NCBI GenBank assembly: GCA_001899005.1
Contig: MKUW01000015.1
Span: forward strand, 372,001-436,000
Direction: 5' to 3'
DNA from: Chloroflexi bacterium 44-23
Lineage (GTDB): Bacteria; Chloroflexota; Anaerolineae; Anaerolineales; Anaerolineaceae
DNA length: 64,000 bases
The notes below the pieces were generated by a model. The model made no database searches and was not told the DNA's origin. It saw nothing but the letters and a program-made list of their open reading frames with translations. Positions 1-56,068 of the stretch are shown piece after piece. Each line of letters begins with the position of its first letter. The first letter of the stretch is position 1. Both the position numbers and the translations under genes were made by a program.

Positions 1-809
1 CAGAAAGAAAAATTTGCTGCATATTCATAACCGATTTCGTTGCTGCGTTGTGATTGCAAAAGGTATTCAAGAGTTGGTATCAATTGTATGGCTGCCAGTC
101 CCAGTGCAATCAGAATTGCAATTGAAAATGCCAAAAGAGAATTAAACATCTTTCTGATGGGTTTTAATATCGGAAAAATGAGAAATATCCCCCCCAGTAC
201 CAGTGTATAAAGACTGGTTTGAGCATGACCACTTAATAGCTGCATTGTCACAAAACATGCAAGCAATAATGTTACTCGCCAATTCACGCGATCATAATTT
301 TCTCGAATTTTCAAAATCGCATATAAAATCCATGATATCCAGGTAAAAGACCAGACCATACTGATGAACGAAATTCTGCTGATGATGTAACCTGAGAAAA
401 CCCACATGAATCCGCCTAATAATTGACTTAATTCGGTCATTTTTAATTGCTTAAGGAAAAGACTCATTCCAATTGCAGCCAACATTACATGTAACAAATA
501 TAACCACGTAAATCCGTAGGCCAGGCCAGTAATCCCAGATAGCTTATAAAATATTATTAGAATCCAATTGAGTGGATAAAATATTGCCGATTGATAATTT
601 GCCATTAATGGGGAACCAAATCCATTCCATGCATTCCAGAGTGGGAATTCACCTGCAGTAATGCGTTCAATCGCAAATTTCATCCAAGGAATAAATTGGA
701 GGGTTGTTGTTCCCCAATAAAGAACTTTTCCATCAAGAAACGTTGGCAGATAAACAATTAAAATAACAATCACCAACGAAACTTGAACTCGAAATTTCTT
801 AAAATACAT
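1..809 (-). CDS. YfhO-like polytopic membrane protein, 3' part cut by the window edge
   Basis: An open frame starts at an ATG at 809 and runs through the left edge without a stop, giving 269 visible residues. The N-terminus has a membrane segment, then a lumenal-type loop with LQFIPW and FPLWNAWNGFGSPL, which matches the N-terminal signature of YfhO/GT-C-like membrane proteins (aromatic and Pro/Leu-Trp-Asn motif before alternating transmembrane helices). Several further hydrophobic segments follow. The start lies two bases after the stop of the preceding gene, so it is translationally linked as the last visible gene of a four-gene operon. YfhO in Firmicutes helps glycosylate lipoteichoic acid. 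The substrate here is unknown. Confidence 0.75.
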   Translation of the reverse strand, partial: MYFKKFRVQVSLVIVILIVYLPTFLDGKVLYWGTTTLQFIPWMKFAIERITAGEFPLWNAWNGFGSPLMANYQSAIFYPLNWILIIFYKLSGITGLAYGFTWLYLLHVMLAAIGMSLFLKQLKMTELSQLLGGFMWVFSGYIISRISFISMVWSFTWISWILYAILKIRENYDRVNWRVTLLLACFVTMQLLSGHAQTSLYTLVLGGIFLIFPILKPIRKMFNSLLAFSIAILIALGLAAIQLIPTLEYLLQSQRSNEIGYEYAANFSF

Positions 810-811
810 TT

Positions 812-2371
812 TCAAAATTCACCCGCCAGCAATAGTTTAAATACGCGATAATCATTATTTTCAAAGAGCAATTCTGAGTTACGGTACCACCAGGACTCTG
901 AATCTATTTCGTATGATTTTGGAAAAATGATGTAACGTACCCAAAATTGTTTCAGAAATTGATCGTTAGAGCTTAGGTTTTCTTGATCAAAAAATTGTGT
1001 GACGAACTTCTGAATTTGATCCAGATTTTTGCTTTCCGGACCATGTCCAGTAATCACTCGGACAGGAATATAGGCTGGTAAAACATTGCTAATATCATAT
1101 GGCGCTAAGACCACATCTTTTTTTTCACAATCTTCACCAATCGCTTGAACGGTTTCAATGACTGATAATGGTTGATAAATTGGTTGGTGCAAATTTGTTA
1201 CAGACAAAAGTGACCCGCTGTACAAGAAAATTGTTGAAAGGCATGTAAAAACAATAACCAAATTACGCCAGGTAGGTTTCTTTATTTTTCCAATGATGAT
1301 TGAAATAAAAATTGAGAGAATCACCCAATAACCATCGGAAAGACGGCGTTGAAGATTAATCGGGAAATAAACCAAAACCGGTAACAATATCGCCCAGCTT
1401 AAAAGAAATATTTTTCTCTGAATTTCAGATCGCCACTTCCACATGACAAAAACGAGACAGAGAAATCCAATCCCATAAGCCCACAGAAAATCAATCGGGG
1501 GAGGAGATTTGATAATGTTCTGGCCTTCCCAGGCGCTTAGATATGGATCAAAAATAAACATGTAAGTGTTATAAGCAAAAAACGGGAATGGAATAAGGAA
1601 AAAATATAAATTTTCTTTAATTGTCACAATCAGCAGTATTTTCCTGAATTTTAAAAACTCAGCCAGCTTCCATGCAAAAATGATCATCCATGCCAACGGA
1701 ATAATTAAAGGTTGAAAAAAACCAGCCAAAAGCAAATAAATACCTGCGGAAACTCTCCGGTCCAGCTGAAATATATCAATCCCAGGTTGCAATAGCATTC
1801 TAAAAGCGCGCAGCATCAAACCACGTGCAAACAGTAAATGTGGTAATCCAAAAATTGACAAAAAACCAAAAGCTTCAGGCGAATAAAATTCTAATGGAAG
1901 TCTTCCGTTAAAAAGTATAACCAACCAGCCCAGGCCTCCACCTACACTCGAAATAATCACGGCAATTTTCGCGAGATTTGATGATGGTATGAAAATTTTT
2001 GCAAATCGGTAAGTCTCTGTTATCAAAAACAAGATTCCAACCCAGCGAAAGATTTGAAAGATTGAAATTAATTGAAGGTGTAATTCAGGTGTGTGGGCAA
2101 GCTTACCAAGAAGATAATAAGGCAGAAACGCAAGAAAACCATTTTGTGGATATGCGCTATAAGGAGTTCGGAAAAGCCAATCACCAGCTGAACCGCTTAG
2201 CATTTTTGCTATGTAAGAATTTCCATCTTCTACCCCGAATAAGAACCCACTAAATTGAAAAGAAGTGCCGCGCGCAAGGTCGAAGCCAATCGATATCGGC
2301 ACAGTGGTCAGCACGATTAAAAATGCAGACCAAATTAAAAGCCATTGTTGGTCCTTATTTTTTGCGTTCAC
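812..2371 (-). CDS. polytopic membrane protein, paralogue of the product of 4438-5985
   Basis: About 519 residues with roughly ten or more transmembrane helices. The N-terminal part carries DGNSYIAKMLSGSAGDW, closely matching DGNTYLAKMQQGYAGEW in the protein encoded at 4438-5985. Both also share FGGGLGWL/VGGGLGWL and an LNLQRR motif near the C-terminal third, so they are paralogues. I chose the GTG at 2371, because GAGG lies six bases before it. The upstream GTG at 2383 has no ribosome-binding site. The gene overlaps the end of the preceding YfhO gene by 17 bases. The architecture (loop with acidic residues between the first helices, many helices, soluble C-terminal tail) resembles GT-C glycosyltransferases, but I cannot name a substrate. 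Confidence 0.8.
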   Translation of the reverse strand: MNAKNKDQQWLLIWSAFLIVLTTVPISIGFDLARGTSFQFSGFLFGVEDGNSYIAKMLSGSAGDWLFRTPYSAYPQNGFLAFLPYYLLGKLAHTPELHLQLISIFQIFRWVGILFLITETYRFAKIFIPSSNLAKIAVIISSVGGGLGWLVILFNGRLPLEFYSPEAFGFLSIFGLPHLLFARGLMLRAFRMLLQPGIDIFQLDRRVSAGIYLLLAGFFQPLIIPLAWMIIFAWKLAEFLKFRKILLIVTIKENLYFFLIPFPFFAYNTYMFIFDPYLSAWEGQNIIKSPPPIDFLWAYGIGFLCLVFVMWKWRSEIQRKIFLLSWAILLPVLVYFPINLQRRLSDGYWVILSIFISIIIGKIKKPTWRNLVIVFTCLSTIFLYSGSLLSVTNLHQPIYQPLSVIETVQAIGEDCEKKDVVLAPYDISNVLPAYIPVRVITGHGPESKNLDQIQKFVTQFFDQENLSSNDQFLKQFWVRYIIFPKSYEIDSESWWYRNSELLFENNDYRVFKLLLAGEF

Positions 2372-4445
2372 GCCTGACCTCACGAATAATCAAGATGACA
2401 ACGGCCAGAAGACTAAAGTATTGAATAATGAATCCATAAGCAACCAATCTTGGTTTGTAAGTAAAGACAATATTATGATCCCCTGACGGCACTTCAATAG
2501 CACGAAATATACCTTCCTGTACAACAGCAGTCTTCATTCCATCAATAGAAGCTTCCCAACCAGGATAGAAAATTTCTCGAAGAATTAATCTTCCCCCACT
2601 TTGAGTGTGTAAAACAATTCGATTGGGTTCAAAACTTAAAAGATCAACCATTGAATTGTTATTTTGGAAAAAAGCAATAGCTGGTTCAATATTAAATTCA
2701 TAAAGATATTTCTCTGAAATAATTTTGGCGCTGGAAAAACCCGGGCAATGATCCAACGTGAAATCGGATATGACATAAACAACATTCAACGCCCTCAATT
2801 TTTCAACTTTAGGACATGAAGAACGATTATCGCTGGCCGGATTGCCGCTCTTAAAAGGTGGTAATGTGACACTATAACCATTATTTTTGATCCCTGAAGT
2901 TAGTTCAAAGAAATCCACATAGTAAGAAAGCTGCATTGGGTCAATACCATTTATTTGATTAATCCTCCAATATGCCCCTTCTTCCTGGCTGATGCTGTAA
3001 CTCGGTGTGTAAATTCGTGCAAATTCCGGTATCGATTCCAATTTGTCCATAAGGGGGGCTTTATTGTTGAGGTGATTTATTGCATTTTTGGGTTGTAAAT
3101 TAATGAAATTAATCCCAGACAGATCAATGAATAATAATAACCCGAGAAAGATCGGTACCAAGTTCAATTCCATTTTTTGGTGGATAACCAAACCCAGGCT
3201 AATCGTTCCTAAAAGAAAGAACGTAAGACTCCATACGATTGTCCACGCCAATTTAGACGTTACTAAATAAGCACCGGCCGCGAATAATACCAGGAATACA
3301 GTCACAGGTACGAGAAAAAAGAAACGATCAAATTTATACCCTTTTGGATTAGAAAGAAAATAATCAATAATAAAAGCTGAAATAACAGCAAAAGAAAAAA
3401 CTGTAAGGAACGCAAACCTGCTGGGAACGCGTAAAAGAGAGATTCCTGGAATTTCAAAGAAATATTTTAACAAAGGAATTTGACTTCCAAATGATAACAG
3501 CATAGCAACACCGGCAACCCAATACCAAAAACGAATTGGTTTGTTCTCTTGAACCAAAACTAAGCCTAAAATGACCATTAATATAACCACGGCGGATGGG
3601 TAAAGAACCCATTCAGCCAATCCCCCAGAGTTCGGGATTACAAGCCCGAGCAAATTTGCAGTATTCAACGCATAAACTGAACGTTCCGCTAAGGTAAGCG
3701 AATATCTGGAAGTATATTGAACGTATTCTATTAAAGGCAGCCACATCGCACTTGATGTCAACAATCCTATCAAACCGGAAATCAAGCTGGTTTTAAATTT
3801 TTGAGATAGTTTTCCTTCATGAGTGAACAGATAGGCTAACCACAACATGCCAGCAGGAACACCCCAACGTGCATCTGCACAAATGATAAAACCGATTACC
3901 ATCCCCGCAAGAAATCTATATAAGCTCGAATTTCGAGCACCAATCTTTTTTGTGAAATAAAACAACCAGGGAGTCCAGAAATATGCATAGAGGAAGCTTA
4001 AATGTCCTGCGGCAAAGTGGGCAAAGACTTTCGTTGACAGAACCAAAGCAATTGCACCAAAAATGGATCCATATTGAGAACGTCCTTCTGCGCGCAAGAA
4101 AAAATACATTCCAAAAGCCGCCATTGTCAGATGCAGAATAAAGACGATGTTAATTCCAGCCGGTAAAGGAAACAAAATCGCGATCCAACCCCAAATATAC
4201 GCAATCCCTGATAGAGGGTTTGCAGAGAAAGGATAGCCAGATTGGATTAAATTTGACCATAAAGGAATTTGGTGATCATTAATTATCCCATTCTGAAGTT
4301 GTAAAAGATTCGGAAAATGACTGATCGGTATATCCGAAAATCCGGAACCCGGCAAATAAAAGAAATCATTTAAATGGACCAGAATATCAGCTGAAGATAT
4401 CAAGAGTAAAACAAGCATGACAAGAAAAACAACTTTCTTAGTCAT
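2355..4445 (-). CDS. YfhO family membrane protein
   Basis: 696 residues. The N-terminal helix is followed by FPNLLQLQNG and IPLWSNLIQSGYPF, then many transmembrane helices. A C-terminal extracytoplasmic domain (about residues 590-670) contains the YfhO hallmark YPGWEASIDG followed by RAIEVPSGDHNIVFTYKP, and a last helix ends in a basic RREVRRERKK-like tail. This order is typical of the YfhO family, implicated in adding sugars to cell-surface polymers in Firmicutes. The ATG at 4445 overlaps the stop of the upstream gene by 8 bases, showing translational coupling. It is the second gene of the first copy of the duplicated two-gene module. The specific sugar or polymer cannot be read from sequence. 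Confidence 0.85.
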   Translation of the reverse strand: MTKKVVFLVMLVLLLISSADILVHLNDFFYLPGSGFSDIPISHFPNLLQLQNGIINDHQIPLWSNLIQSGYPFSANPLSGIAYIWGWIAILFPLPAGINIVFILHLTMAAFGMYFFLRAEGRSQYGSIFGAIALVLSTKVFAHFAAGHLSFLYAYFWTPWLFYFTKKIGARNSSLYRFLAGMVIGFIICADARWGVPAGMLWLAYLFTHEGKLSQKFKTSLISGLIGLLTSSAMWLPLIEYVQYTSRYSLTLAERSVYALNTANLLGLVIPNSGGLAEWVLYPSAVVILMVILGLVLVQENKPIRFWYWVAGVAMLLSFGSQIPLLKYFFEIPGISLLRVPSRFAFLTVFSFAVISAFIIDYFLSNPKGYKFDRFFFLVPVTVFLVLFAAGAYLVTSKLAWTIVWSLTFFLLGTISLGLVIHQKMELNLVPIFLGLLLFIDLSGINFINLQPKNAINHLNNKAPLMDKLESIPEFARIYTPSYSISQEEGAYWRINQINGIDPMQLSYYVDFFELTSGIKNNGYSVTLPPFKSGNPASDNRSSCPKVEKLRALNVVYVISDFTLDHCPGFSSAKIISEKYLYEFNIEPAIAFFQNNNSMVDLLSFEPNRIVLHTQSGGRLILREIFYPGWEASIDGMKTAVVQEGIFRAIEVPSGDHNIVFTYKPRLVAYGFIIQYFSLLAVVILIIREVRRERKK

Positions 4446-5985
4446 CCGATACCTTAAAGATCTTCACATATTCGTCGGCATATACAAGATGAAATCTGTC
4501 CAAGATCCTGAGATTTGATAACGTTTGTTCCTCCAGACCGTAAAATAAATAATCAACCTCCCAAATTTTAATTAGATCCCGGCTCGTTCCGAAAGGTTCT
4601 TGTGTCCAAAAATCAGTTACTTGCAACAAAGTTTGATTGGCATTTACAGTTTCAAATGGATGACCATAAACTGTCTTAACAGGCGCTAAAGAAGGTAACA
4701 ACAAACCAGTATGTGGCCCAGAAAATACAACCGACTCCGGTTCAACTGAATTTGACATCCAAGTTGCAGGTTTTTCCAGGTAAGTTGGCAAAAAAAGGTT
4801 CTCGTTTCGGGTTTTGATGGCATTGATGGAACCTGTCAATACGAAAAGTGATGAAGGAAGACCCAAAAGCGTAATTAATAATACGATTCTGATCTTGATC
4901 CTTTCATTTGTAAATTGGTCAATTTGAAAATAGCGGTTTAAAAATAAGAAAAAAAGGGCAGCGACAGGTATATAAAAGCCAACCATAAATCGTCTTTGCA
5001 GATTAAGCGGTAAATACAATAAGATGATTGTTGAAAATATCCAAATCGCTAAAGTCGTTTCCAATGAAGTCAATCGAAATGGGCCCCGTATCCTTATCAA
5101 GAAATACATCCAAACCAGCCCGATTAGAAATGGTGAAAATGAAAATAAAAAATTAAGTATCGTTGGTGCTGGGGTAATATTTTGGGCATTCCAACCGCTT
5201 AACAACAAATCGTTTTTTATTGAGAGGAACTGATAAAGAACAACCGGCAAACTGAATGCAGCCGCAATAGCAAAGTCAATGATTTCTTCCTTCGCGCCTT
5301 CCTCCCGATGAATTATCACCTGGCTTAAAAGAATAATCAGGATGATCACTACTGAAAATGGAGAAATATTCGCAAGAACAAAACCAATTAAACCAAACGA
5401 TGCCTTGTGCCACCAATGCTTTACAGGCGTTAAACCAAAAATAAGCGCTAAAAGTATTAATGCAATGCTCAGAGGAAAATGTGGGTTTGAAAGTGCTGAA
5501 AGGAAAGGAAAAGCCTCTGCAACCCAAAAATCTGCTGGCAAATCACCTGAGATCAAATAAAGCCAGCCCAGCCCCCCACCGAATAATAAGATGAATACAA
5601 TAAAGAATTTTAGATATGCGAGTTTAATTGGCATTAATTTAACGAATTTAATTATCACAAAAAACATAAAAACAGAAGATAGGATTCTTGCAGTGTGAAA
5701 AACCCATAAAACAGGTAAATGAAAAAGTTTAGCAGCATGACCCAATAATAAGTAAAAAATGAATAATAAGACCTTGCCGTTGCTGGCTGAAGTGTAAGGA
5801 AGCTGATAAAACCATTCGCCAGCATAACCTTGCTGCATTTTAGCAAGGTAAGTATTCCCGTCGATTGGATTCAATAAAAATCCGTTGAAAACTTGATCTT
5901 TATTATTTGATAAGAACCCAAAAACGAAGGGAGAAATAAGAACGGTTAACCAGAATAAAAGCAAAAGGACTTTATTACGGTTCAT
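4438..5985 (-). CDS. polytopic membrane protein, first gene of the YfhO-module operon
   Basis: 515 residues with about ten transmembrane segments and a soluble C-terminal tail of roughly 110 residues. It shares DGNTYLAKMQQGYAGEW, FGGGLGWL and LPLNLQRRF with the protein of 812-2371, so the two are diverged copies. The start ATG at 5985 has no Shine-Dalgarno site. Instead a strong promoter places transcription initiation at or next to the A of the ATG (see the promoter at 5994-6022). It is coupled to the YfhO gene downstream. The layout suggests a GT-C type glycosyltransferase or a lipid-linked sugar handling protein, but this is inference from topology only. Confidence 0.8.
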   Translation of the reverse strand: MNRNKVLLLLFWLTVLISPFVFGFLSNNKDQVFNGFLLNPIDGNTYLAKMQQGYAGEWFYQLPYTSASNGKVLLFIFYLLLGHAAKLFHLPVLWVFHTARILSSVFMFFVIIKFVKLMPIKLAYLKFFIVFILLFGGGLGWLYLISGDLPADFWVAEAFPFLSALSNPHFPLSIALILLALIFGLTPVKHWWHKASFGLIGFVLANISPFSVVIILIILLSQVIIHREEGAKEEIIDFAIAAAFSLPVVLYQFLSIKNDLLLSGWNAQNITPAPTILNFLFSFSPFLIGLVWMYFLIRIRGPFRLTSLETTLAIWIFSTIILLYLPLNLQRRFMVGFYIPVAALFFLFLNRYFQIDQFTNERIKIRIVLLITLLGLPSSLFVLTGSINAIKTRNENLFLPTYLEKPATWMSNSVEPESVVFSGPHTGLLLPSLAPVKTVYGHPFETVNANQTLLQVTDFWTQEPFGTSRDLIKIWEVDYLFYGLEEQTLSNLRILDRFHLVYADEYVKIFKVSDD

Positions 5986-5993
5986 TGAATTCG

Positions 5994-6022
5994 AGTATAC
6001 ATGAACTGAATAAAAATCTCAA
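5994..6022 (-). promoter_or_regulatory. promoter of the YfhO-module operon, leaderless type
   Basis: On the minus strand TTGAGA (6022-6017), a 17-base spacer, then TATACT (5999-5994). Only 8 bases separate the -10 box from the ATG at 5985, so transcription would begin at the start codon or one base before it. No Shine-Dalgarno motif is present. The -10 box lies in a 12-base sequence, GTATACATGAAC, that recurs at 6056. Confidence 0.7.
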
Positions 6023-6049
6023 TTTCGATCTCCAAATCATTCACTTGAC

Positions 6050-6078
6050 TTGCTTGTATACATGACCACATCTATAAT
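6050..6078 (+). promoter_or_regulatory. promoter of the zinc-ribbon/NACHT pair, leaderless type
   Basis: TTGCTT (6050-6055), 17-base spacer, perfect TATAAT (6073-6078), then 7 bases to the ATG at 6086. Transcription is predicted to start at about 6085-6086, i.e. at the start codon. Upstream in-frame TTG and ATG codons at 6050 and 6062 lie inside the promoter and cannot be translated from this transcript. The spacer contains GTATACATGACC (6056-6067), a near copy of the sequence at 5995-6006 in the divergent promoter. Confidence 0.7.
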
Positions 6079-6085
6079 CAAGATT

Positions 6086-6787
6086 ATGAGCCAACGTGGA
6101 TTTTTATATAGCCTGCAATTAATAGATTCGCAAATTGACAAAATTCTTGATCGCATCAATGTGATTAACACCAGAATTCAAGACAAAGAGCTGGTTACCA
6201 ATGCGCAATTCGTAAAAAACGAGGCAGAGCAAAAGGCGACGAAAAAACAATCAGAAATTCGAAAACTGGAAGATCAAATCAACTCAATTGTTTATAAAAA
6301 GAAGGAGAGTGAAAAAGAACTCTATGGGGGAAAAATTAAGAATCCGAAGGAATTACAATTATTACAGGAAGAGATATCATCGCTTAAAAATAGAATTTCA
6401 CAATTAGAAGATGAATTGTTTAATCTAATGATTGAAAATGAGACCCTCGAGCATGAATTGCAGGCAGCTGAAACAAATCTACTAAAAATTACAACTGACA
6501 AAGCCGCTGAAGTTGCCGATTTGGAATCTGAAAAAACGCAACTTCTAACTGAGTTGAATGTCTTGAAAATCGAAGAGGAACCTATCCAAGCTCATATTGA
6601 TTCCGATTTGTTAAATAAATACCAGAAGCTAAGAATTTCAAAAAATCGTTTGGCTGTTGTAATTGTTGAAGAAAACGCTTGCAGCGGGTGTGGCAACAGC
6701 CTTACCCTGGCAGAATTGCAGAAGATAAAATCACCGATCGATGAATATTACTGCCCGGTTTGTAAACGCATATTGTATTATGGGTAA
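6086..6787 (+). CDS. coiled-coil protein with C-terminal C4 zinc ribbon
   Basis: 233 residues from the ATG at 6086, chosen because earlier in-frame starts fall inside the promoter. Residues about 10-180 form a long heptad-rich coiled coil (runs of E, K, Q, L), and the C-terminus holds a four-cysteine ribbon, CSGCGNSL ... YYCPVCKRILYYG. This is the layout of the bacterial zf-RING_7/DUF164 family (Helicobacter HP0958 and chlamydial CdsZ are studied members, linked to flagellar or type III functions and RNA binding). No flagellar genes are nearby, so the role here is open. The stop is 5 bases before the NACHT-protein start, so the two are co-transcribed. Confidence 0.85.
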   Translation: MSQRGFLYSLQLIDSQIDKILDRINVINTRIQDKELVTNAQFVKNEAEQKATKKQSEIRKLEDQINSIVYKKKESEKELYGGKIKNPKELQLLQEEISSLKNRISQLEDELFNLMIENETLEHELQAAETNLLKITTDKAAEVADLESEKTQLLTELNVLKIEEEPIQAHIDSDLLNKYQKLRISKNRLAVVIVEENACSGCGNSLTLAELQKIKSPIDEYYCPVCKRILYYG

Positions 6788-6792
6788 TTTTA

Positions 6793-9192
6793 ATGCTTAA
6801 CTGGTTAAAACACTTTCAACTCGAAAGAATTTCTTTCTTTATAGGGTTTTTGACGGCTTCACTTTTTTGGTGGTTATTTGTTAAAACCAAGAAATGGTGG
6901 CCAGAAATTACCAATTCTCTCAAAAATATGAGCGAAAATATTCGTCGCAACCAATCGTATGGATTGGTTATTGCTCTTCGGAAAGATGTTATCAAGCGTT
7001 CACAATCAAATCACATTGGGGCAAAGCTCTTCCGTCTAAACGAAATTCTTGTAGAACCATCATTTCTTATACCTCCCCATTTGAATATCGGTGCTGAAAA
7101 ATCGCTTTTTCAAGAAGAAGCTGCCAATATGGTAGCGTTTTCTCCAGAATTAACCGTTATTAGTCGCAATTTTTCGGTACCAAAAATAGAAATCTACAAC
7201 GCAATTCAAAAATATCCACGTATTGCTATCAGTGGGATTCCCGGATCCGGAAAAACATTTACGATGGCTCATTTAGCCAGTTTAATTGCGGAAAAAAATG
7301 TTGCTTGTGGAAATTGCAGTGGCAAAACACCGTTTTACTTTCATGTCTATGATACAAGTATGTTACTTTCCCCTAATCATGATTTACCCACCCACATTTA
7401 TAAAGCAATATCCCCCTATTTACCTTCTTCCCAATTACCAAAACTGGCTAAATTCATTGATCATGAATTAACCAAAGGTAACGCAATCATCATTCTTGAT
7501 GGATTGGACGAGCTACACGAAAGTGATGCTGACAAGATACTGGAGATGATTGAAAGATCCACTAGCACGTATCCATTCACACAATGGGTACTGTCAACTT
7601 CACCTTATTATTTCGGAAATCTGGAACGAATGAATTTCGTTGTTTTACCAATCGCAGCGATGTCTAACGCTGAAATCAATGAACTTCACCAAAAATGGAT
7701 TTCATTATGGTACCGACACATTTTTGGTGAGGATAGTCAAACACCTTATTATCTTAAACGGGAACTTCTCCTTAATTGGGCGAATTTCACACCGCCGGGC
7801 TATACATCTTTGGAAAATACACTTTATATCTGGGGAGCACTATCCGGAGATTTGCGTGGTAATGATACATTATCGATTTATGAAAGTTTGTTCTCACGAA
7901 TTTTCCAAGCCGGCTATTCTCCGGATGCTTTGGCAGCCTTCGCTTATCAATTTATTGAAGCCGATTCAACAGCACTGCCTGCCAAAAAATCAGAGGGCAG
8001 CCTTTCCGAACCGCTGCTTGATTGGGGAATCCTAAGCCATAAAAACGATTTATTGGTGTTTAATTATATTGATCTCCTAACATATCTGGCCAGTATGTAT
8101 CCGAAACTAAAACATACACCAGAGAAAATCGAACTCCTCGTTCGCAATGCAATCGATTTTTCCTATATGGGATTTTTGTCTGCTCGGAATGCTCAACCCA
8201 AATGGGTAGAAAATAGCTTGCAAATAGATCAGGCACCTTTATATTACAACTTAACGACGATCTTCCCCTGGCTACGCCATGCTCCGATTAATACGCCGTG
8301 GCGAACCGCTTTATTTAAGACTTTGATCCAATTGATTCAAAACCCAATCACACCAACCGGAATAAAGACCCGACTTTCATCCGCATTTGCTTATGCGAAT
8401 GACCCTTCTTTGAATGTTTTTTGCAAACAGCTCTTATCACAATCGGATAATAACTACAAAATATTGGCCCTTCTCTTGATTGGCTCCACTTCTGATAATT
8501 CATTGAATAATGAAATTATTGCTTCACTTTCGACATCGTCATCACAAATTCAAAAATATTCGGCACTGGCTTTGTCTGTATTTGAAGATGATCAAAGTTA
8601 TCATGCTCTGGCCTTATTGCTTTTAAACGCTGACGAGGATGTTCGCAAACTGGTAGCAGAAAGTCTGGCGAACATGAAATTACAGGGCATTGATATTTTG
8701 AAGGATGCAATTACACTCGAGGATATTTCGGTTCGTCGATCCGCAATTTTTGGACTCGCCCACATTAATGAATTGTGGGCTTATGAATTACTTGGAAAAT
8801 TATCGATCGAAGATTCACAATGGGTAGTACGAAATGTAGCCCATCAAGCAGTCGAATATTTGGATTCTCAATCACAATTTTCCCCCCAAACAGTAATCCC
8901 TCTATATGAAAAAGAATGGTTGATTCAATTCGCAGCTGACCAGAACCTCGGTATTTCACCGGAAATCAACCCGACTCCCTTGTTGCTGAAAGCAATCAAT
9001 TCCGGTACAGAGCAAGAAAAACTAAACGCTATGGCAGAATTACCATTGTTTATCGAAGGTACCCCGCAGGCCGACATCATACAGTTGGTCTATGATAGTA
9101 ACCAGCAAATTTCAGAAATGTGTGCCAATATGATTTGGAGAATATACCAATCCGGAACAGAGATTCTTATTGATCAAGCCAGTTTGATTTAA
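6793..9192 (+). CDS. membrane-anchored NACHT-type NTPase with HEAT-like repeats
   Basis: 799 residues. A single hydrophobic helix at about residues 13-30 anchors the N-terminus. A P-loop GIPGSGKT lies at 148-155 and a Walker B with the NACHT-type extended acidic motif IIILDGLDEL at 232-241. The central part (about 300-500) is helical winged-helix-like. Residues about 530-760 contain degenerate HEAT/Armadillo units such as SVRRSAIFGLAHINE and DEDVRKLVAESLANM. STAND NTPases of this build act as signal-gated switches, and many bacterial NACHT proteins are immune sensors, but membrane-anchored versions may be regulatory. No effector domain is evident. The stop overlaps the convergent DUF167 gene by 4 bases. 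Confidence 0.8.
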   Translation: MLNWLKHFQLERISFFIGFLTASLFWWLFVKTKKWWPEITNSLKNMSENIRRNQSYGLVIALRKDVIKRSQSNHIGAKLFRLNEILVEPSFLIPPHLNIGAEKSLFQEEAANMVAFSPELTVISRNFSVPKIEIYNAIQKYPRIAISGIPGSGKTFTMAHLASLIAEKNVACGNCSGKTPFYFHVYDTSMLLSPNHDLPTHIYKAISPYLPSSQLPKLAKFIDHELTKGNAIIILDGLDELHESDADKILEMIERSTSTYPFTQWVLSTSPYYFGNLERMNFVVLPIAAMSNAEINELHQKWISLWYRHIFGEDSQTPYYLKRELLLNWANFTPPGYTSLENTLYIWGALSGDLRGNDTLSIYESLFSRIFQAGYSPDALAAFAYQFIEADSTALPAKKSEGSLSEPLLDWGILSHKNDLLVFNYIDLLTYLASMYPKLKHTPEKIELLVRNAIDFSYMGFLSARNAQPKWVENSLQIDQAPLYYNLTTIFPWLRHAPINTPWRTALFKTLIQLIQNPITPTGIKTRLSSAFAYANDPSLNVFCKQLLSQSDNNYKILALLLIGSTSDNSLNNEIIASLSTSSSQIQKYSALALSVFEDDQSYHALALLLLNADEDVRKLVAESLANMKLQGIDILKDAITLEDISVRRSAIFGLAHINELWAYELLGKLSIEDSQWVVRNVAHQAVEYLDSQSQFSPQTVIPLYEKEWLIQFAADQNLGISPEINPTPLLLKAINSGTEQEKLNAMAELPLFIEGTPQADIIQLVYDSNQQISEMCANMIWRIYQSGTEILIDQASLI

Positions 9193-25508: not shown

Positions 25509-26732
25509 ATGGATAAATTTATTAGCGATGTTGACGAAGAAAATGATGAAAGCTTAGTCTACCCGGCGATTGCCAGATTGGTGGAATTAGGACGCCAAAA
25601 ATCTTATATCACCATAGATGATATCCTTCATTTTTTCCCGGAAGCTGAACAAGACGTAGAACAACTGGAGGAAGCTTTTGCAGCTCTAATGAGCGCAGGT
25701 ATCCCCTACATTGAAGATGAAACCCCTTTAGATGGACCGGTAGAAGATGACCTGGAAACTGAACAGGAAGAAAAAGAAGATGAGGAGTCGTCCAAACTCT
25801 CTCTAGATGATCTGCAAAACATTGACACTGATGACACGATCGGTTTGTATTTGAAGGAAGTGAGTCGCGTTCCTTTGTTGACAGCTGAAGAAGAAGTTGA
25901 GCTGGCGCAGAGGATCGAGCGTGGCCGTTTGGCGCGTGAAGAACTGGCGAAAGGAAATACAACGGAGAACAGGCGCTATGAACTTCGTCGTTTGATCGAA
26001 GATGGCTGGAGTGGTCGTGAGCATCTGATCACAGCCAATTCAAGGTTAGTTATCAGCGTAGCCAAGAAATATATGGGGCGTGGGGTTCCCTTTTTGGACC
26101 TAATTCAAGAAGGAAATATCGGGCTCATCCGTGCTACAAAAAAATTCGATTACCGCCGCGGCCACAAATTCTCCACCTACGCAACATGGTGGATTCGTCA
26201 GGCAGTTACACGGGCAATTGCCGATCAGGGAAGAACGATCCGCGTGCCTGTCCACATGGGAGACCAAATCAATAAGCTCTTGAGAATTCAACATCAACTC
26301 ACCCAAAGACTTGGGCGAGAACCAAGCGTGGAAGAATTGGCAGAAGCCTTGGATGTACCCCCGAAGAAAGTTGAAAATATGATCCAGGTAGCTCGCCGGC
26401 CGTTATCCTTAGAGACACCGACAGATGATGAAGAAGACTCTGTATTGGGCGATTTTATCGAGGACAATGAAGCTCCTCCTCCAGATGAGATGGCCACTTA
26501 TAATTTGCTTAAGGAACATCTTGAAGAAGTTCTGAATGGCTTGCCACCAAGGGAGGTAAGGATTCTGCAATTGCGCTATGGCCTCTTGGATGGGCAAGCA
26601 TACACACTTGAAGAGGTTGGCAGAAAAATGGGTGTTACTCGCGAGAGAGTTCGCCAAATTGAAGCGCAAGCTTTGAGTCGTTTGCGGCACCCGGTGATTC
26701 GCAGAAAATTGCGAGACTATTTAGGCGAATAA
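25509..26732 (+). CDS. rpoD: RNA polymerase primary sigma factor, RpoD/SigA type
   Basis: 407 residues. An N-terminal region 1.1-like helical part and an acidic linker (about 75-98) precede region 1.2 ([25 protein letters not shown]). Region 2 has [37 protein letters not shown], with the -10-recognition helix intact. Region 3 starts RTIRVPVHM. Region 4 ends with the [23 protein letters not shown]. Recognises TTGACA/TATAAT promoters, as found throughout the window. GAGGA lies 13 bases before the ATG, rather far. Followed by a clear terminator, so rpoD is monocistronic. Confidence 0.95.
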
Positions 26733-26779: not shown

Positions 26780-26840
26780 ATTCTATTTATCCGATATACT
26801 TATCTAAGACGTTTTTAAAGCTCTTTATTTGGGAGGAAGT

Positions 26841-29800
26841 ATGGCCAAGATTTCCTTGCGTGAATACATTCGAGAAATAGAAAACCTGATCGACAGAGGT
26901 GATACGCAAAAAGCCATAGCACACTGTAAACATCTTTTGAGGTTTTATCCAAAACATATCGATACATATCGACTTTTTGGAAAAGCACTTTTAGAAATGC
27001 AGAAATACGGGGATGCCTCGGATATTTTTCAGAGGGTACTTTCCTCCGTTCCGGATGATTTTATTTCTCAAATTGGAATGAGCATTATAAAAGAAGATGA
27101 AAATAACTTAGATGCAGCCATTTGGCACCTCGAAAGAGCATTTGAAATCCAGCCATCGAACAAAGCAGTACAGGATGAATTAAAACGCTTATATTCCAGC
27201 AGAGATGGCGTCCTTCCAACAAAAATACGCTTGACTCGCGGTGCCCTTGTTCGGATGTATGCCAGAGGGGAACTGTACTCACAAGCAATAGCCGAGATTA
27301 AAGCCGCCTTAATTGAAGACCCCAATCGAGTTGATCTGGAAGTTATCTTGGGGCGTCTCTACTATATTTTAGGTCAAAAGCTCGAAGCCACTGAAACAGC
27401 CAGTAAATTAATAGCCATGTTACCTTATTGCTACGAGGCAAACCGTATTCTGGCTGAAATTCTTCCGGGTACTTCACGCGATGAAGATGCGAAAATATTC
27501 AGACAACGCGTGATCGACCTTGACCCTTACTTTGAATTTGTAAACGAATCCATCCCCAATCCCATTGATATTGCTGATAACAATGTGATGGTTGAGTATT
27601 TGGACTGGGATCCTACGACAGCGGAATCAGATCAACCAGATTGGGCGAAATCGATTGGATTGGATTGGGATACTGGCGAAAAAATTGCTGCTCCATCGCT
27701 CGATAGCTGGCTTTCTGACGAAATGGATTTAACCAAACCACGGGAAGAAAATGTTTTTCCGGGTTATTCAAGTTTAGAAGAGAATCATGAAGAACAAGAA
27801 CAACCCGAAAAGATCGATTCAAGCTCTTATGATGTGGATGAGACAATTGTGCCCGAGAGTAAAACTGCTGAATCAGAATTAATCAATGTGAATGAAAATG
27901 AAACCATACCCGCCTGGATGGCAGAAGTCGGTTGGGAAGTAAGCGATGAGGTCAATCCGGATCTTGAAAAAGGTTTCAACTTTACAGCTGGAGATGAAGA
28001 AATTGTTTCAGAAATTGCTTCAGGGGAAGAGCTCCCGGAAATTGAGCCAGGAATAATACCGGATTGGGTAAAACAACTTGCACCTTCAGAAGAATTGCGT
28101 GCTGAGGGCATAATCGATGAAGATGATCAATTTATAGATGACAAAAACTTTGAAAAACTTTTTTCAGTGTCACCAGTTGAAGAAGAAGAAGAAGACTTCT
28201 TTAAGAATTTAAATAAATCACAGGATTGGATGAAAGAATTTGAAACAGAGAGTGATGAGCTCATTCGACGGGATGAAGTTGAAGGATTAGTTTCTGAACT
28301 GGAAAACCAGGAATTTTCTTACGCTGAAGAATCTGAAGAAATCATTTTGCCGGCCGAGGAATCTGATTCAGGAGCAGGCACTTTTTCTACAGATGCCGAA
28401 ATTGAAGAAGAAGAAAAAGAAGAAATTAATTTACCTGCAATTAGTGAGAGTGCTACTGAAGTAACCGCAGATGTTGAATCAAGTTGGTTCCGGGATTTTA
28501 TTCCTGATGAAGGAAAAGTTAAACAAGTGGATGGTGAGGAGGAGGAGGATAAGAGTTTCTTAAGCTTTTTGCCTGAGATTGGTGATACAGATCAGGAAGA
28601 GCCGCAGGCTGTACCGCAAGAAGGTGATTTCTCTTGGTTGAATGCATTACAAAGCTCCGCTGGCGATGAAGACATACCCGCCGAGGAGGAATTGCCCCAA
28701 CCAACAGAAAAGAAAGATCTTGACGCCATCACAGAAGATGATGATGAAGAATTTAAAGATATTTTTACTTTAATCGATCCAACGATTAAGGAATCCATTC
28801 AAGAGTCTGAGGAAATCGATCTATCAAGCTTGCCATTGGAAGAAAAGACCCCGGATTGGCTTGAATCTTTAATGCAAAACATTCCTGAACAGCAACCTGA
28901 AGATGCGGTTACAAAGAGAATTGATTCTCCTTCTTTCGAGGCAGAACCTGAAACCACAGCAGAGCCGGATTTGGCTACGAAGAAAATCGAATCTCCCTCT
29001 TTCGAATCCGGTACTCCCATAAATGCAGATGAAGAAACTGTTATCGAGGATTCGTCTTCAGAAGAAATCGAATCTGCATTTTCTTGGATGGAAGAATTGG
29101 TTACAAAACATAGCAAAACTGAACAGATGACATCTTTTGATAACATCAGCGAAACACCTGCACAGCCGGATTGGTTAAAAGACTTCAAAGAAGAAGCCAT
29201 TGAAGAAGAACCCGATCCATTTATGGAATCAAGTAAAGAGGCAGAGCAAGATTTTCTGGATGATGATTTGACTCCTTCCTGGTTGAAAGCTTTACAAGAT
29301 GAATCACAAGAACCGGACGAAATTGTTTCTGAATTGGCGCATGAGACAGATGAAATTTCCCAAGAAATAGATGTTACTTCCCTTGAATTAGATGATGAAT
29401 TTGAGGCATTGTCCGCTGTTGAAGATGTAGAAACACATGAAGAGGTTGAACCAGTTGCAGATATTGAACAAGAATATGTAGAGGCCTCCTCTGCTTTGAA
29501 ACTAGACGATGAAATAATAAGCCAGATTGATGGCATCTTAGAGCCTGAAAAGGCATCACTACTTTCACATGATCAAGAAATTGAAGAGGATATAGATTTT
29601 GATTTAAGCACTCAGGTCCCTGAACATGTTGAAGATGGCAAGCTTGAAGAAGCGCTTGTTGCAGCTGTAGATTTCAAGGAAAAACCAGATTCAGAGATCA
29701 GGACTGTTGAAGAAGAATTGGTAATTCAAAAACAGGTCCAAGGTGATTTCGAGAAAAACAATGTAGAAAATCTGGTTTTGGCGAACAAATTACTCAATAA

Positions 29801-30014
29801 AGGCGAGGTTGAGAATGCGGTTACGCTCTATAATGGTTTGATACAATCTAAATCTTCATTGGATGAAATCATCAGAGAATTAAAAGAAGCCTTGGACCAT
29901 CGCTACCCTATCGACATCTCCCTTTGGCAGACACTCGGAGATGCATATGTACGAAAAAATCAACTTCAGAATGCACTTGACGCATATACCAAAGCTGAGG
30001 AATTAATTTCATAA
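26841..30014 (+). CDS. large acidic TPR scaffold protein with repeated Trp motifs
   Basis: 1057 residues from ATG 26841, which follows GGAGG by four bases. A TTG four codons earlier lies inside that site. Residues 1-220 are about five TPR units (for example AKISLREYIREIENLIDRG, DTYRLFGKALLEMQKYGDA). About 220-950 is a low-complexity, Glu/Asp-rich region with ten spaced short motifs of the form (P or S)-x-W-(L/M/V/F)-x-x-hydrophobic, such as IPDWVKQL, TPDWLESL and TPSWLKAL. A duplicated tract contains RIDSPSFE / KIESPSFE. The last 90 residues are another TPR pair. Cytoplasmic, no signal peptide. Probably an adaptor. Partner unknown. ndk follows after 16 bases. Confidence 0.8.
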   Translation: MAKISLREYIREIENLIDRGDTQKAIAHCKHLLRFYPKHIDTYRLFGKALLEMQKYGDASDIFQRVLSSVPDDFISQIGMSIIKEDENNLDAAIWHLERAFEIQPSNKAVQDELKRLYSSRDGVLPTKIRLTRGALVRMYARGELYSQAIAEIKAALIEDPNRVDLEVILGRLYYILGQKLEATETASKLIAMLPYCYEANRILAEILPGTSRDEDAKIFRQRVIDLDPYFEFVNESIPNPIDIADNNVMVEYLDWDPTTAESDQPDWAKSIGLDWDTGEKIAAPSLDSWLSDEMDLTKPREENVFPGYSSLEENHEEQEQPEKIDSSSYDVDETIVPESKTAESELINVNENETIPAWMAEVGWEVSDEVNPDLEKGFNFTAGDEEIVSEIASGEELPEIEPGIIPDWVKQLAPSEELRAEGIIDEDDQFIDDKNFEKLFSVSPVEEEEEDFFKNLNKSQDWMKEFETESDELIRRDEVEGLVSELENQEFSYAEESEEIILPAEESDSGAGTFSTDAEIEEEEKEEINLPAISESATEVTADVESSWFRDFIPDEGKVKQVDGEEEEDKSFLSFLPEIGDTDQEEPQAVPQEGDFSWLNALQSSAGDEDIPAEEELPQPTEKKDLDAITEDDDEEFKDIFTLIDPTIKESIQESEEIDLSSLPLEEKTPDWLESLMQNIPEQQPEDAVTKRIDSPSFEAEPETTAEPDLATKKIESPSFESGTPINADEETVIEDSSSEEIESAFSWMEELVTKHSKTEQMTSFDNISETPAQPDWLKDFKEEAIEEEPDPFMESSKEAEQDFLDDDLTPSWLKALQDESQEPDEIVSELAHETDEISQEIDVTSLELDDEFEALSAVEDVETHEEVEPVADIEQEYVEASSALKLDDEIISQIDGILEPEKASLLSHDQEIEEDIDFDLSTQVPEHVEDGKLEEALVAAVDFKEKPDSEIRTVEEELVIQKQVQGDFEKNNVENLVLANKLLNKGEVENAVTLYNGLIQSKSSLDEIIRELKEALDHRYPIDISLWQTLGDAYVRKNQLQNALDAYTKAEELIS

Positions 30015-30030
30015 TTATTGGAGTAAATAC

Positions 30031-30486
30031 ATGGAACAAACATTAGTATTGGTGAAACCCGATGGCGTGCAACGAGGTCTCATCGGTGAAATAATCGCTC
30101 GCTTGGAAAAAAGAGGTCTTAAACTTGTTGGTGCAAAATTAATCCAGGTTGCCGATTCACTGGCAAGAGAACATTACGCTATTCATATCGGTAAACCTTT
30201 TTACGAAGGGTTGATCCAATACATTACCGCTGCTCCGGTGATGGCCATGGTATGGGAGGGTGAGAATTCCGTTAATGCAGTACGACAAACCATGGGTTCG
30301 ACCGATCCTGTAAAAGCCACGCCGGGGACCATTCGTCATGATTTTGCATTGTTAATCTCCCGCAATCTTACACATGCATCCGATTCCCCCGAAAATGCTC
30401 GAAATGAAATTTCGCTATGGTTTGAAAAAGATGAAATTGTCGAGTGGCAACGATTAAATGAAGATTGGATTACCGGCGGAAACTAG
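30031..30486 (+). CDS. ndk: nucleoside diphosphate kinase
   Basis: 151 residues. Starts EQTLVLVKPDGVQRGLIGEI, contains HYAIHIGKPFYEGLI and the ATP-binding MGSTDPVKATPGTIRHDF. The phosphorylated histidine is H115 in RNLTHASDSPENA. The usual HGSDS block reads HASDS, a conservative change. Balances NTP pools by gamma-phosphate transfer through phosphohistidine. It sits 16 bases after the TPR gene and is probably co-transcribed with it. Within this window it lies with other pyrophosphate/nucleotide enzymes. Confidence 0.96.
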   Translation: MEQTLVLVKPDGVQRGLIGEIIARLEKRGLKLVGAKLIQVADSLAREHYAIHIGKPFYEGLIQYITAAPVMAMVWEGENSVNAVRQTMGSTDPVKATPGTIRHDFALLISRNLTHASDSPENARNEISLWFEKDEIVEWQRLNEDWITGGN

Positions 30487-53545: not shown

Positions 53546-56068
53546 CTACTTTGATACAACCATTTTTATCATCTTTCCCTTTGAATCAATGGTGACCCGG
53601 GCTGTGTGAGTATATTTTTTGCGACCTAATTGGACCAAATTTTGTAAAGTAACTACATAGCGATCTTTAATCAGTCGAATATTCTCGCTTGCTGAAGGCA
53701 CGCCTTTATATGTGCTATCGACGCCTACTTGCATTTTGTTCAACTTTACTGTTGCTTGTTCGATACCCGGCAGATACGGCTTAAGTTTTAATTTTACTTG
53801 AGAAATGATTTCTTCATCAATTACCAGCCCATTTCCATTTCCATGATCGACATCACATATTGTTTTTACCTTGGAAGGCTTCGCTAAAATTGGTAAGCGT
53901 CTGTTGACCAAATTATTGGGTTCATATGCAAAGAAAGGATCACCATAGAATATAAATTGGATCAATGTTTTTTGATCTTCACCATCCAGGTACCCCTGTC
54001 GAGTAGTCATTTGCTGCACAAGGCTAATTTTCGCTCGCATAAAAGCTTCCCCACTGGTGTTGCCTTCACGAACATTCTTCCAAAACAAATTTGCCAACAA
54101 ATCAGCAGCAATTAATGGTGAAGAAATGGAACCATATGAAGTACAGGTAGATCCGATAAAAACCGGAACACCTAATGATAGATATTTCAACCCAATTGAA
54201 TTGTTCTCGTATTTATTGAACATGTGGCCGCCATAGCAAGCTTCAGTAAACACAATCTTCGGAGCGCGTCCATTTGCGACCAGATCTTCAGGTGCTACTG
54301 CTAACGGGTAATCAATGCCGCTTGGGTCAAGGTAATCGCGTTGTCCATACCATTCACCATGGTCTTGAAGGCCATGCAAATTAAAATAAACCAAATCATT
54401 ATTCATTAAATCACTTTGTTTAAGGAATTGGTTCTTCAAAGCAGGTGAAATGAATACTTTCTTGGTTTCAGCGATTGGCCGAAAAGTTGCGTAGGATGAT
54501 AATTTCCATACTGATGCAGAATAACCGATTCCAGATAGGTTGGCAGGCCTCATCAAAGCAGAAAACGAGCTAAATATTCGTGCCCACACCATGCGAATTG
54601 ATTTCGGTTGGGAATGATATTTGACCATCGAGCGCAATTGCTGAATTAAAATACCGGCATCAGCTCCGTTTTCACCCATAATTCTGCCAACAGGCCAATC
54701 CGGAACAAAATAATTAGAATCCAGATTGGAATACGGATTATCTGAGAGAACTTCGTTGTCGACATCATCTGTAGGGTTAGGCAGGCGGTGGAATGGAACC
54801 ACCTCATCATTACCCACAATTAATAATGCTCCAATCTTCTCACCTCTTTTTAACAGCGAGTTATCTAACTCGAGAAGACTGCTTTTTATTTTCCAGGGAT
54901 CAATAATATTTAAGGCTGCCGTGTTGAACTTAGTCTGCGATTGAGGATCGTCCGGGATAAATAAAACCGAATCCCATCCCGGTTTGCTCTGCACGAGCAG
55001 TTGGATATGCCGCAGCACCTGAAAAATTATCTGATAGGTCTGCTCACCATATTGTTTAATCAATCCTGTTTTGGTTGTTAGAATAACATAAACTGGGAAC
55101 CGGCCATCTATTTTCGTATTGGCATCTTTTTTTAATTTATTGGCAAGCCTTGCGAACTCTTTGGAGACCTGTTTGCCGGTATCGGATTGAATAAACGATT
55201 TTCGTTTATTTCTGGATGAGTTTTCCTCAAATTCATCAAAGTTTATCGCATAATTTGTATTCGGATCCCCTTCCGGCAGCCTGTTCCAACCTAAATCAAA
55301 AGCAACTTCATTTGGCACCTGCAGATCCAGGACGATCTCTAATTTGTCCGGCCAAAGAGGCAGAAAAACATGCTGATCACCCCACCATCGTCTTGCTACT
55401 TGTCCAGATGCATCTTGAGCCACACATTCATGTAACAAATTGACTGCTCGTTCCTCATCACCCATTTCTAAAAGTTCTTCTGCCAAAACCATCTTGAATT
55501 GAATTGCTTCTGGCCAGGTACTATGATAAAGATCTGCCAGTTTCTGAACAGTATTTGTATCCTGGTTTAAGTAGACCGTTTTAAGATGATATACATTGAT
55601 CAAAGCATTATCTTGCTTTAGAGAGAGAATTCTAAAAACCATTTGCGAGGCATCATCTACCTTGTTTTGAATAATGGCTTTTTGAACGGCATGCAGGGCC
55701 GGACTCCAGACTGGCAGCATATTTTTCTGAACCCCTTTGCCACCAAGAGCGAATTGAGAAGCCTGGCTGAGCAGTTTCTCGGATGCACTCACCGGAAGAT
55801 GTCCTAAAAACTGATAGGCTTCCAGAAATTCCGGGTCCGATTTTAGCAAGTCATTCACCAATTCTATGGCCTTTTGCCAATTCTTTTCAGCAGCAAAGAA
55901 TTTCGCGAGATAAAGTTTTATTCCAAGGTCACCGGGATATGCGCCAAGCCATTTTAACGCTGCCTGTCGTCCAAAAACATTTTTTTGGTGGCTGAGGGCA
56001 GACCCAAGAATTTGGATCAGTGTTCCACGCGAAATTGCCGTCTGCGAACTTCTAGGATCATCCAACAT
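53546..56068 (-). CDS. TPR protein fused to a clan-CD (C25/gingipain-like) cysteine protease
   Basis: 840 residues from ATG 56068, nine bases after GGAGG. An upstream ATG at 56098 is inside the giant TPR gene without its own site. Residues 1-240 are TPR-like (AIELVNDLLKSDPEFLEAYQFLG). A central alpha/beta domain is followed by the protease core: catalytic His H565 in YFNLHGLQDHGEWYG, Cys C611 in IVFTEACYGGHM, plus SIGLKYLSLGVPVFIGSTCTSYG and the C25 terminal motif IFYGDPFF. A C-terminal tail of 130 residues is not recognised. Downstream of the giant TPR gene with an 11-base overlap. Substrate unknown. Confidence 0.8.
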   Translation of the reverse strand: MLDDPRSSQTAISRGTLIQILGSALSHQKNVFGRQAALKWLGAYPGDLGIKLYLAKFFAAEKNWQKAIELVNDLLKSDPEFLEAYQFLGHLPVSASEKLLSQASQFALGGKGVQKNMLPVWSPALHAVQKAIIQNKVDDASQMVFRILSLKQDNALINVYHLKTVYLNQDTNTVQKLADLYHSTWPEAIQFKMVLAEELLEMGDEERAVNLLHECVAQDASGQVARRWWGDQHVFLPLWPDKLEIVLDLQVPNEVAFDLGWNRLPEGDPNTNYAINFDEFEENSSRNKRKSFIQSDTGKQVSKEFARLANKLKKDANTKIDGRFPVYVILTTKTGLIKQYGEQTYQIIFQVLRHIQLLVQSKPGWDSVLFIPDDPQSQTKFNTAALNIIDPWKIKSSLLELDNSLLKRGEKIGALLIVGNDEVVPFHRLPNPTDDVDNEVLSDNPYSNLDSNYFVPDWPVGRIMGENGADAGILIQQLRSMVKYHSQPKSIRMVWARIFSSFSALMRPANLSGIGYSASVWKLSSYATFRPIAETKKVFISPALKNQFLKQSDLMNNDLVYFNLHGLQDHGEWYGQRDYLDPSGIDYPLAVAPEDLVANGRAPKIVFTEACYGGHMFNKYENNSIGLKYLSLGVPVFIGSTCTSYGSISSPLIAADLLANLFWKNVREGNTSGEAFMRAKISLVQQMTTRQGYLDGEDQKTLIQFIFYGDPFFAYEPNNLVNRRLPILAKPSKVKTICDVDHGNGNGLVIDEEIISQVKLKLKPYLPGIEQATVKLNKMQVGVDSTYKGVPSASENIRLIKDRYVVTLQNLVQLGRKKYTHTARVTIDSKGKMIKMVVSK

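Follow-up and report, generated by a model that had tools for sequence, protein, structure and literature searches.

What does a bacterial cell gain from a soluble protein that is folded at both ends and joined in the middle by a long acidic chain dotted with tryptophan motifs? The question is raised by a gene at 26841..30014 of a 64,000-nucleotide stretch of DNA from Chloroflexi bacterium 44-23 (contig MKUW01000015.1, positions 372,001 to 436,000, forward strand), which is referred to here as the window. The product of this gene, called the hub in this text, is probably a cytosolic multivalent adaptor that is widespread in Chloroflexota and whose Trp helices plug into a putative reader. The gene can be divided into three regions, two of which contain tetratricopeptide repeats (TPR):

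26841..30014, + strand: the hub gene, with TPR-disordered region-TPR architecture; open reading frame (ORF) of 1057 residues, supported by Pfam and by relatives.
26841..27620, + strand: N-terminal TPR domain, residues 1-260; Pfam TPR matches and AlphaFold2.
27621..29717, + strand: acidic, predicted disordered middle, residues 261-959; AlphaFold2 and 31% Asp plus Glu.
29718..30011, + strand: C-terminal TPR domain, residues 960-1057; Pfam and AlphaFold2.

The Pfam TPR matches are located at both ends of the protein, with nothing between them, and both Pfam and AlphaFold2 support tandem TPR helices. In the AlphaFold2 model, which was built with a 37-row alignment, the predicted local distance difference test score (pLDDT) of the N-terminal domain is at least 90 in each ten-residue block up to residue 260, the helices of the C-terminal domain start at residue 960 and exceed a pLDDT of 90 from about residue 971, and 580 residues fall below 50, every listed low segment being within residues 279-960. 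The 720-residue stretch formed by residues 241-960 has an Asp plus Glu content of 31% and contains 14 Trp. The N-terminal domain shows mostly 40-64% identity across order-level relatives. Since most relatives begin with a sequence similar to MA-ISLR, the start codon of the hub is likely the ATG at 26841 rather than the TTG at 26829. A simple hydropathy scan revealed no membrane segment (the best 19-residue mean is 1.02 and none is above 1.8), as expected of a soluble protein, and the hub is presumably cytosolic.

The pattern W[LVIMFA]xx[LIVMFW] was counted in residues 241-960 and appears ten times, versus a mean of 1.06 and a maximum of 8 in 10,000 shuffles. The hub was searched for in 101 genomes, including the source genome, and 85 of them match; 40 order-level relative loci were compared, with L052 and L053 truncated at contig ends. 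The nearest named records belong to a HGW-Chloroflexi-8 metagenome-assembled genome (87% over the N-terminal domain), Bellilinea, Longilinea, and Thermanaerothrix, and the records that match the hub include the culturable Bellilinea caldifistulae and Longilinea arvoryzae. In 37 of the 41 homologue middles, window protein included, the motif count is above the maximum of 500 shuffles. The 37-row alignment comprises the window protein and 36 of the 40 relatives (L047, L052, L053, and L064 were excluded), and in it the mean identity of the 14 middle Trp is 0.75 versus 0.17 at other middle positions. Because aligners favour Trp, shuffled middles were re-aligned in three runs, rendering values of 0.07, 0.19, and 0.22 for Trp and 0.13-0.14 for the other positions. 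The shuffles and the re-aligned shuffled middles rule out chance or composition as the source of the motifs. Thus, the initial annotation was right in describing ten Trp motifs in an acidic middle between TPR ends, and the conservation in orthologues on which it had made its reading depend is observed.

The sequence around the motif is well defined. Position enrichments were computed around 809 Trp residues without any preselection. Hydrophobic residues are enriched 2.2-fold at -3, 3.7-fold at +1, and 2.3-fold at +4, Pro 5.4-fold at -2, Lys/Arg 6.4-fold at +2, and Asp/Glu 1.7-2.5-fold at -5, -4, and -1, the resulting consensus being [DE][DE]-hydrophobic-P-[DE]-W-L-[KR]-x-hydrophobic. Among 377 motifs, the +4 residue is Leu, Ile, Met, or Val in 358, Phe in 18, and Trp in one. 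Relatives carry up to 25 sites; in one of them (L032) the sites have been multiplied as an 84-bp unit present in 7.8 copies with a 90% match.

The individual sites of the hub are given below, with per-site identities taken from the 37-row alignment and helices from the AlphaFold2 model:

27636..27656, + strand: motif 1, PDWAKSI (W268), block W-A-x-S-I-G; 84% identical; helix 267-271.
27708..27710, + strand: W290, a conserved Trp missed by the pattern of the initial annotation; 92% identical.
27909..27929, + strand: motif 2, PAWMAEV (W359), block IPxWMxxAGW; helix 358-362.
28059..28079, + strand: motif 3, PDWVKQL (W409), block IPDWLQxIAP; helix 408-413.
28221..28241, + strand: motif 4, around WMKEF (W463); 81% identical; helix 463-466, low confidence.
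28479..28499, + strand: motif 5, around WFRDF (W549); 84% identical; helix not predicted.
28629..28649, + strand: motif 6, FSWLNAL (W599); 86% identical; helix 598-604, low confidence.
28851..28871, + strand: motif 7, PDWLESL (W673); 57% identical; helix 672-679.
28926..29006, + strand: segment in which SPSFE appears twice; not conserved.
29067..29195, + strand: diverged copy of a 43-residue module holding motifs 8 and 9; profile; helices 739-762 and 777-786.
29079..29099, + strand: motif 8, FSWMEEL (W749); 95% identical; within helix 739-762.
29166..29186, + strand: motif 9, PDWLKDF (W778); 78% identical; helix 777-786.
29274..29294, + strand: motif 10, PSWLKAL (W814); 70% identical; helix 813-821.

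A single uniform repeat can be ruled out, since single conserved blocks, a 43-residue module, and lineage-specific expansions coexist. For instance, the IPxWMxxAGW and IPDWLQxIAP blocks are each found by regular expression in 33 of the 41 sequences, the latter at other positions in a few of them, and W409 is invariant across the alignment. The 43-residue module, A-W-L-E-x-L-A-A-K-Q-G-A...P-P-x-W, is present in one to four copies in 32 of the 41 sequences. The hub contains one diverged copy (W749-W778), whose profile E-value of 1.1e-14 is partly circular because the profile was built from 33 rows that include this copy. The remaining sites of the middle belong to a generic PDWLxxL type. The idea of regular copies of one motif must therefore be abandoned: the spacing varies between 29 and 91 residues, several types are mixed, and at least one conserved Trp, W290, escapes the pattern. 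The repeated SPSFE tract also reported in the initial annotation does occur twice in the window protein; it is found in just one of the 40 relatives, that is, in two of the 41 sequences with the window protein included, and it was rejected as a functional repeat. AlphaFold2 places a helix at nine of the ten motifs. Eight motif Trp residues are the first or second residue of their helix, W749 lies within a longer helix, and W549 is outside any.

The hub is not restricted to the order. In a phylum-wide sample of 301 genomes, 114 have its N-terminal domain at E <= 1e-12. Outside the order, 24 genomes match the 43-residue module, and 17 of the 20 tested also have the N-terminal hub domain, which was not found at E <= 1e-6 in the other three (G211, G165, and G134), despite a weak module match. 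At the end of the middle of one relative (L054), a stretch resembling a ComEA-type helix-hairpin-helix domain was spotted by eye.

A second protein is also rich in this motif. A search with a generic-motif profile in five genomes (E <= 10) gave 68 matches, 30 of them in the hub, 21 in a second ORF, and 17 as singles; there is one such second ORF per genome, and any third ORF has at most one profile match. In the source genome this protein, named here the PxWL membrane protein, is encoded in a conserved gene cluster:

L119 (source genome C15:52000-64000) 407-8356, - strand: DUF6754 cluster, conserved and uncharacterised.
L119 4567-6990, - strand: PxWL membrane protein of the source genome; 1 profile match and 9 PxW[LMIV] sites by regular expression.

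The order of the cluster is DUF6754, an unknown gene, the PxWL membrane protein, another unknown, a MutL-family protein (PF13941), which we take to have an actin-like fold, a KOW protein, and a further unknown. DUF6754 was found in 15 of the 22 Chloroflexota genomes checked versus none of 14 control genomes. The motif sits in the N-terminal, acidic chain of the membrane protein. Among 18 members or positional counterparts, 16 carry a pair of hydrophobic segments, separated by about 250 residues in most members and by about 240-350 overall, whereas L125 and L127 stop at a sequence edge; a zinc-ribbon pattern is present in 10, the Pfam zinc-ribbon matches being below cut-offs. In 16 of the 18 members, PxW[LMIV] sites are more numerous than in any of 1,000 shuffles, the exceptions being L134 and L137. 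Pfam detected no TPR in the three members scanned. The domain between the segments gives a good model, yet no solved relative was found at E <= 0.001.

These features suggest how the hub might work. The folded TPR domains at the two ends, which presumably bind clients, are joined by the long acidic disordered chain, along which about ten short amphipathic helices would each act as a low-affinity plug for the hydrophobic groove of a putative reader, avidity being set by the number of plugs. Since the same plug is dense on the membrane protein, one reader, or several related readers, would gather both proteins at one place in the cell. According to gene order, Ndk would be the first candidate client of the TPR domains. 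The suggestion in the initial annotation that the motifs are docking sites for one partner thus survives in its first half: docking is the best reading of the Trp motifs, which the hub and the membrane protein may present to a shared reader. That there is a single partner is less certain, given several positional classes of motif and the presence of the motif in a second, membrane protein.

Several observations weigh against the adaptor reading. The reader of the motifs is putative, and the presence of TPR by itself tells little about clients, although we infer that the TPR domains of the hub hold some. The nine helical motifs reach a pLDDT of only 43-70 in ten-residue blocks, so that their helices should be taken as suggestions, and AlphaFold2 predicts five more helices in the middle that are not at motifs. 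Four of the 41 homologues (L057, L063, L068, and L070) show no motif excess, and neither kind of motif is present in the distant hubs L078, L079, L091, and L092. Moreover, seven of 20 distant hubs (L080-L085 and L087) carry a PF-type motif instead, P[FY][SDENT][LFWIM]xx[LIMF], in 6-29 copies per hub versus about 0.03-0.2 expected; an example from the middle of L087 is LKPFSLEELGLSPEEIAQLE. PxW[LMIV] is not in excess in hubs of this type, apart from L084, where the two motifs occur together. The membrane counterpart (L125-L131) keeps its PxW[LMIV] excess in all seven of these genomes, with at most one PF-type site each (L125 and L127 are cut). Co-switching of the motif in both proteins, seen in none of these seven genomes, was therefore discarded, and any reader shared by the two proteins would need to recognise both motifs.

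Other explanations have to be compared with the adaptor reading, and their probabilities overlap with it because three of them are themselves docking hypotheses of a narrower kind. Short peptides or helices are common ligands of TPR grooves, and the Trp helices might plug the grooves of the hub itself, giving a closed form, a homotypic meshwork, or a condensate. This self-association is rather unlikely. In its favour, besides the usual ligands of TPR grooves, the two halves of the hub are separate adjacent genes in L075 and L109-L113 and may have to find each other. The first gene of these split hubs encodes the N-terminal TPR domain, and the second ends with the C-terminal one; in L075 and L109-L112 a copy of the 43-residue module is found close to the beginning of this second protein. 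However, the pLDDT of 43-70 for the motif helices makes firm docking not evident in the model, and the motif is also dense in a membrane protein in which Pfam detected no TPR (three members scanned). Direct insertion of the Trp helices into the inner membrane is very improbable. The helices are amphipathic and contain Trp, and the WF helices of PEX5 also touch membranes, as outlined in PMC8086558. However, anionic membranes should repel short helices embedded in a chain with 31% acidic residues, and binding to a membrane would not demand features as specific as Pro at -2 and Lys/Arg at +2.

The gene order leads to another explanation, which requires considering the genes at both sides of the hub:

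25509..26732, + strand: sigma-70 factor gene, RpoD/SigA type, upstream of the hub.
30031..30486, + strand: ndk, starting 16 bases past the hub stop codon; NCBIfam NF001908.

The ndk product matches NF001908 with 199 bits (cut-off, 155), and the sigma factor is above the cut-off of the sigma-70 superfamily model and below those of the RpoD models. In 37 of the 40 order loci ndk is downstream of the hub on the same strand; L052 and L053 are cut and L068 lacks it. It is also found at 13 of the 20 distant loci, directly in six and after one intervening unassigned ORF in seven; L073 and L077 stop at contig edges, and L074-L076, L078, and L088 are without ndk. Among ten further loci ndk is present in six, with L114 and L118 cut and L110 and L113 lacking it. 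The sigma-factor gene is upstream of the hub in 26 of the 40 order loci, and the identified upstream genes vary among the distant loci. Conservation of the hub-ndk pair therefore extends far outside the order; it favours a functional link between both genes and shows no contact between their products. If the hub bound Ndk through its motifs or its TPR domains, it could place the nucleotide supply near a consumer. The persistence of this linkage at order, distant, and further loci while the examined upstream genes vary speaks for such a scaffold, but shared expression alone may explain the gene order, the motif is also present in a protein encoded elsewhere, and ndk is not beside the hub in L068, L074-L076, L078, L088, L110, and L113, where the sequence continues. 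A role as Ndk scaffold seems distinctly improbable.

The remaining explanation concerns cell division. The source genome has two genes of interest:

L071 and L072 (source genome C6): a pair of genes for FtsZ, each with a canonical tail; ftsA lies next to the first.

Several proteins bind the FtsZ tail, as outlined in PMC3418248 and PMC9939409. The conserved FtsZ C-terminal peptide resembles the motif in its acidic-hydrophobic-Pro-x-aromatic-Leu-basic core in a disordered tail, a core that can be written D-[ILV]-P-x-F-[LM]-[RK]. The two source-genome tails, DIPAFLR and DLPAFLR, agree with the motif at six positions (-4, -3, -2, the aromatic residue, +1, and +2). The differences from the hub array are that the peptide is present in one copy, has Phe where most motif copies have Trp, is followed by basic residues, and lacks the +4 hydrophobic residue. 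In a score test with a motif matrix that ignores the aromatic residue, 22 of 28 tails, picked by regular expression from 32 FtsZ frames, rank in the top 1% of 1,628 aromatic-centred control sites from 36 other window proteins; since the tails were selected with an expression that is itself similar to the motif, this result is a lead and not a proof.

The Trp motifs may copy the FtsZ C-terminal peptide and be read by a tail binder, FtsA being the candidate, which would bring both the hub and the PxWL membrane protein to the division site or make them compete for it. This is unlikely as matters stand. Apart from the tails and their scores, the presence of Phe in the motif of some relatives (IPDFLRAAGW and IPGFLQEAGW) and of FtsA beside ftsZ is consistent with it. 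On the other hand, the tails have no +4 hydrophobic residue and carry basic residues past the core, in contrast to the acidic surroundings of the motif, six of the 28 tails are outside the top 1%, four frames gave no tail, three tails were scored on nine positions, the choice of tails favours resemblance, and motifs this short may converge by chance. SepF, another tail binder, was found in none of 13 genomes versus 7 of 14 control genomes and is ruled out as the reader. A broader proposal, also doubtful, is that the Trp helix is a widespread Chloroflexota address tag, similar to the FtsZ tail and borne in many copies by the ndk-linked hub and the membrane protein of the MutL cluster, and that one actin-fold reader (FtsA or the MutL-like protein) would gather both at a division or growth site, the hub having been re-coded to the PF-type in some lineages.

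With respect to known systems, the adaptor reading is helped by two comparisons. PEX5, as described in PMC8086558, is a soluble TPR protein whose disordered region carries several amphipathic WxxxF/Y helices read by PEX14. It resembles the hub in this layout and in the +4 hydrophobic residue after Trp. The TPR domain of PEX5 reads PTS1 cargo tails. PEX5 structures are among the many TPR matches to the hub. The hub differs in having TPR at both ends and a mostly aliphatic +4 residue: literal WxxxF occurs at three of the ten sites (W463, W549, and W778), and the homologue +4 residue is aliphatic in 358 of the 377 motifs. Homology is claimed for the TPR only. FimV/HubP, in turn, has according to PMC12918733 a long acidic cytoplasmic region, a C-terminal TPR domain, and a middle that varies between genera. 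The acidic region of the hub (31% Asp plus Glu over 720 residues, presumably cytoplasmic) agrees with this description. However, the hub has no hydrophobic segment and possesses an extra N-terminal TPR domain and the Trp-helix array. No LysM model appeared among the Pfam or NCBIfam matches at E 0.1. The hub does have a C-terminal TPR, but no FimV model is among its NCBIfam matches, from a library that should include one. The hub is thus not assigned to either family, no sign of peroxin homology having been found beyond the TPR; the architecture is reminiscent of FimV/HubP, and the Trp helices look like PEX5 plugs.

Other genes of the window encode repeat proteins. At 53546-61442, a 1,794-residue TPR protein adjoins an 850-residue protein that combines TPR with a Peptidase C25 domain, and at 6793-9192 there is a 799-residue protein with NACHT and HEAT repeats. 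PADLOC gave no match for the TPR/Peptidase C25 pair, nor for the hub, for which a defence role was considered and rejected on that basis. Within the literature searched, no publication was found on a TPR/disorder/short-linear-motif or Ndk-linked hub in Chloroflexi or Anaerolineae, on FtsZ-tail motifs in Chloroflexi, or on DUF6754.

If the adaptor reading is true, a large and little-studied phylum would have its own cell-organising scaffold, with a docking code readable from sequence that consists of about ten sites in the window protein, up to 25 in its relatives, and those of a second protein. The likeness to the FtsZ tail makes it testable whether division proteins of Chloroflexota are organised through tail-like motifs.

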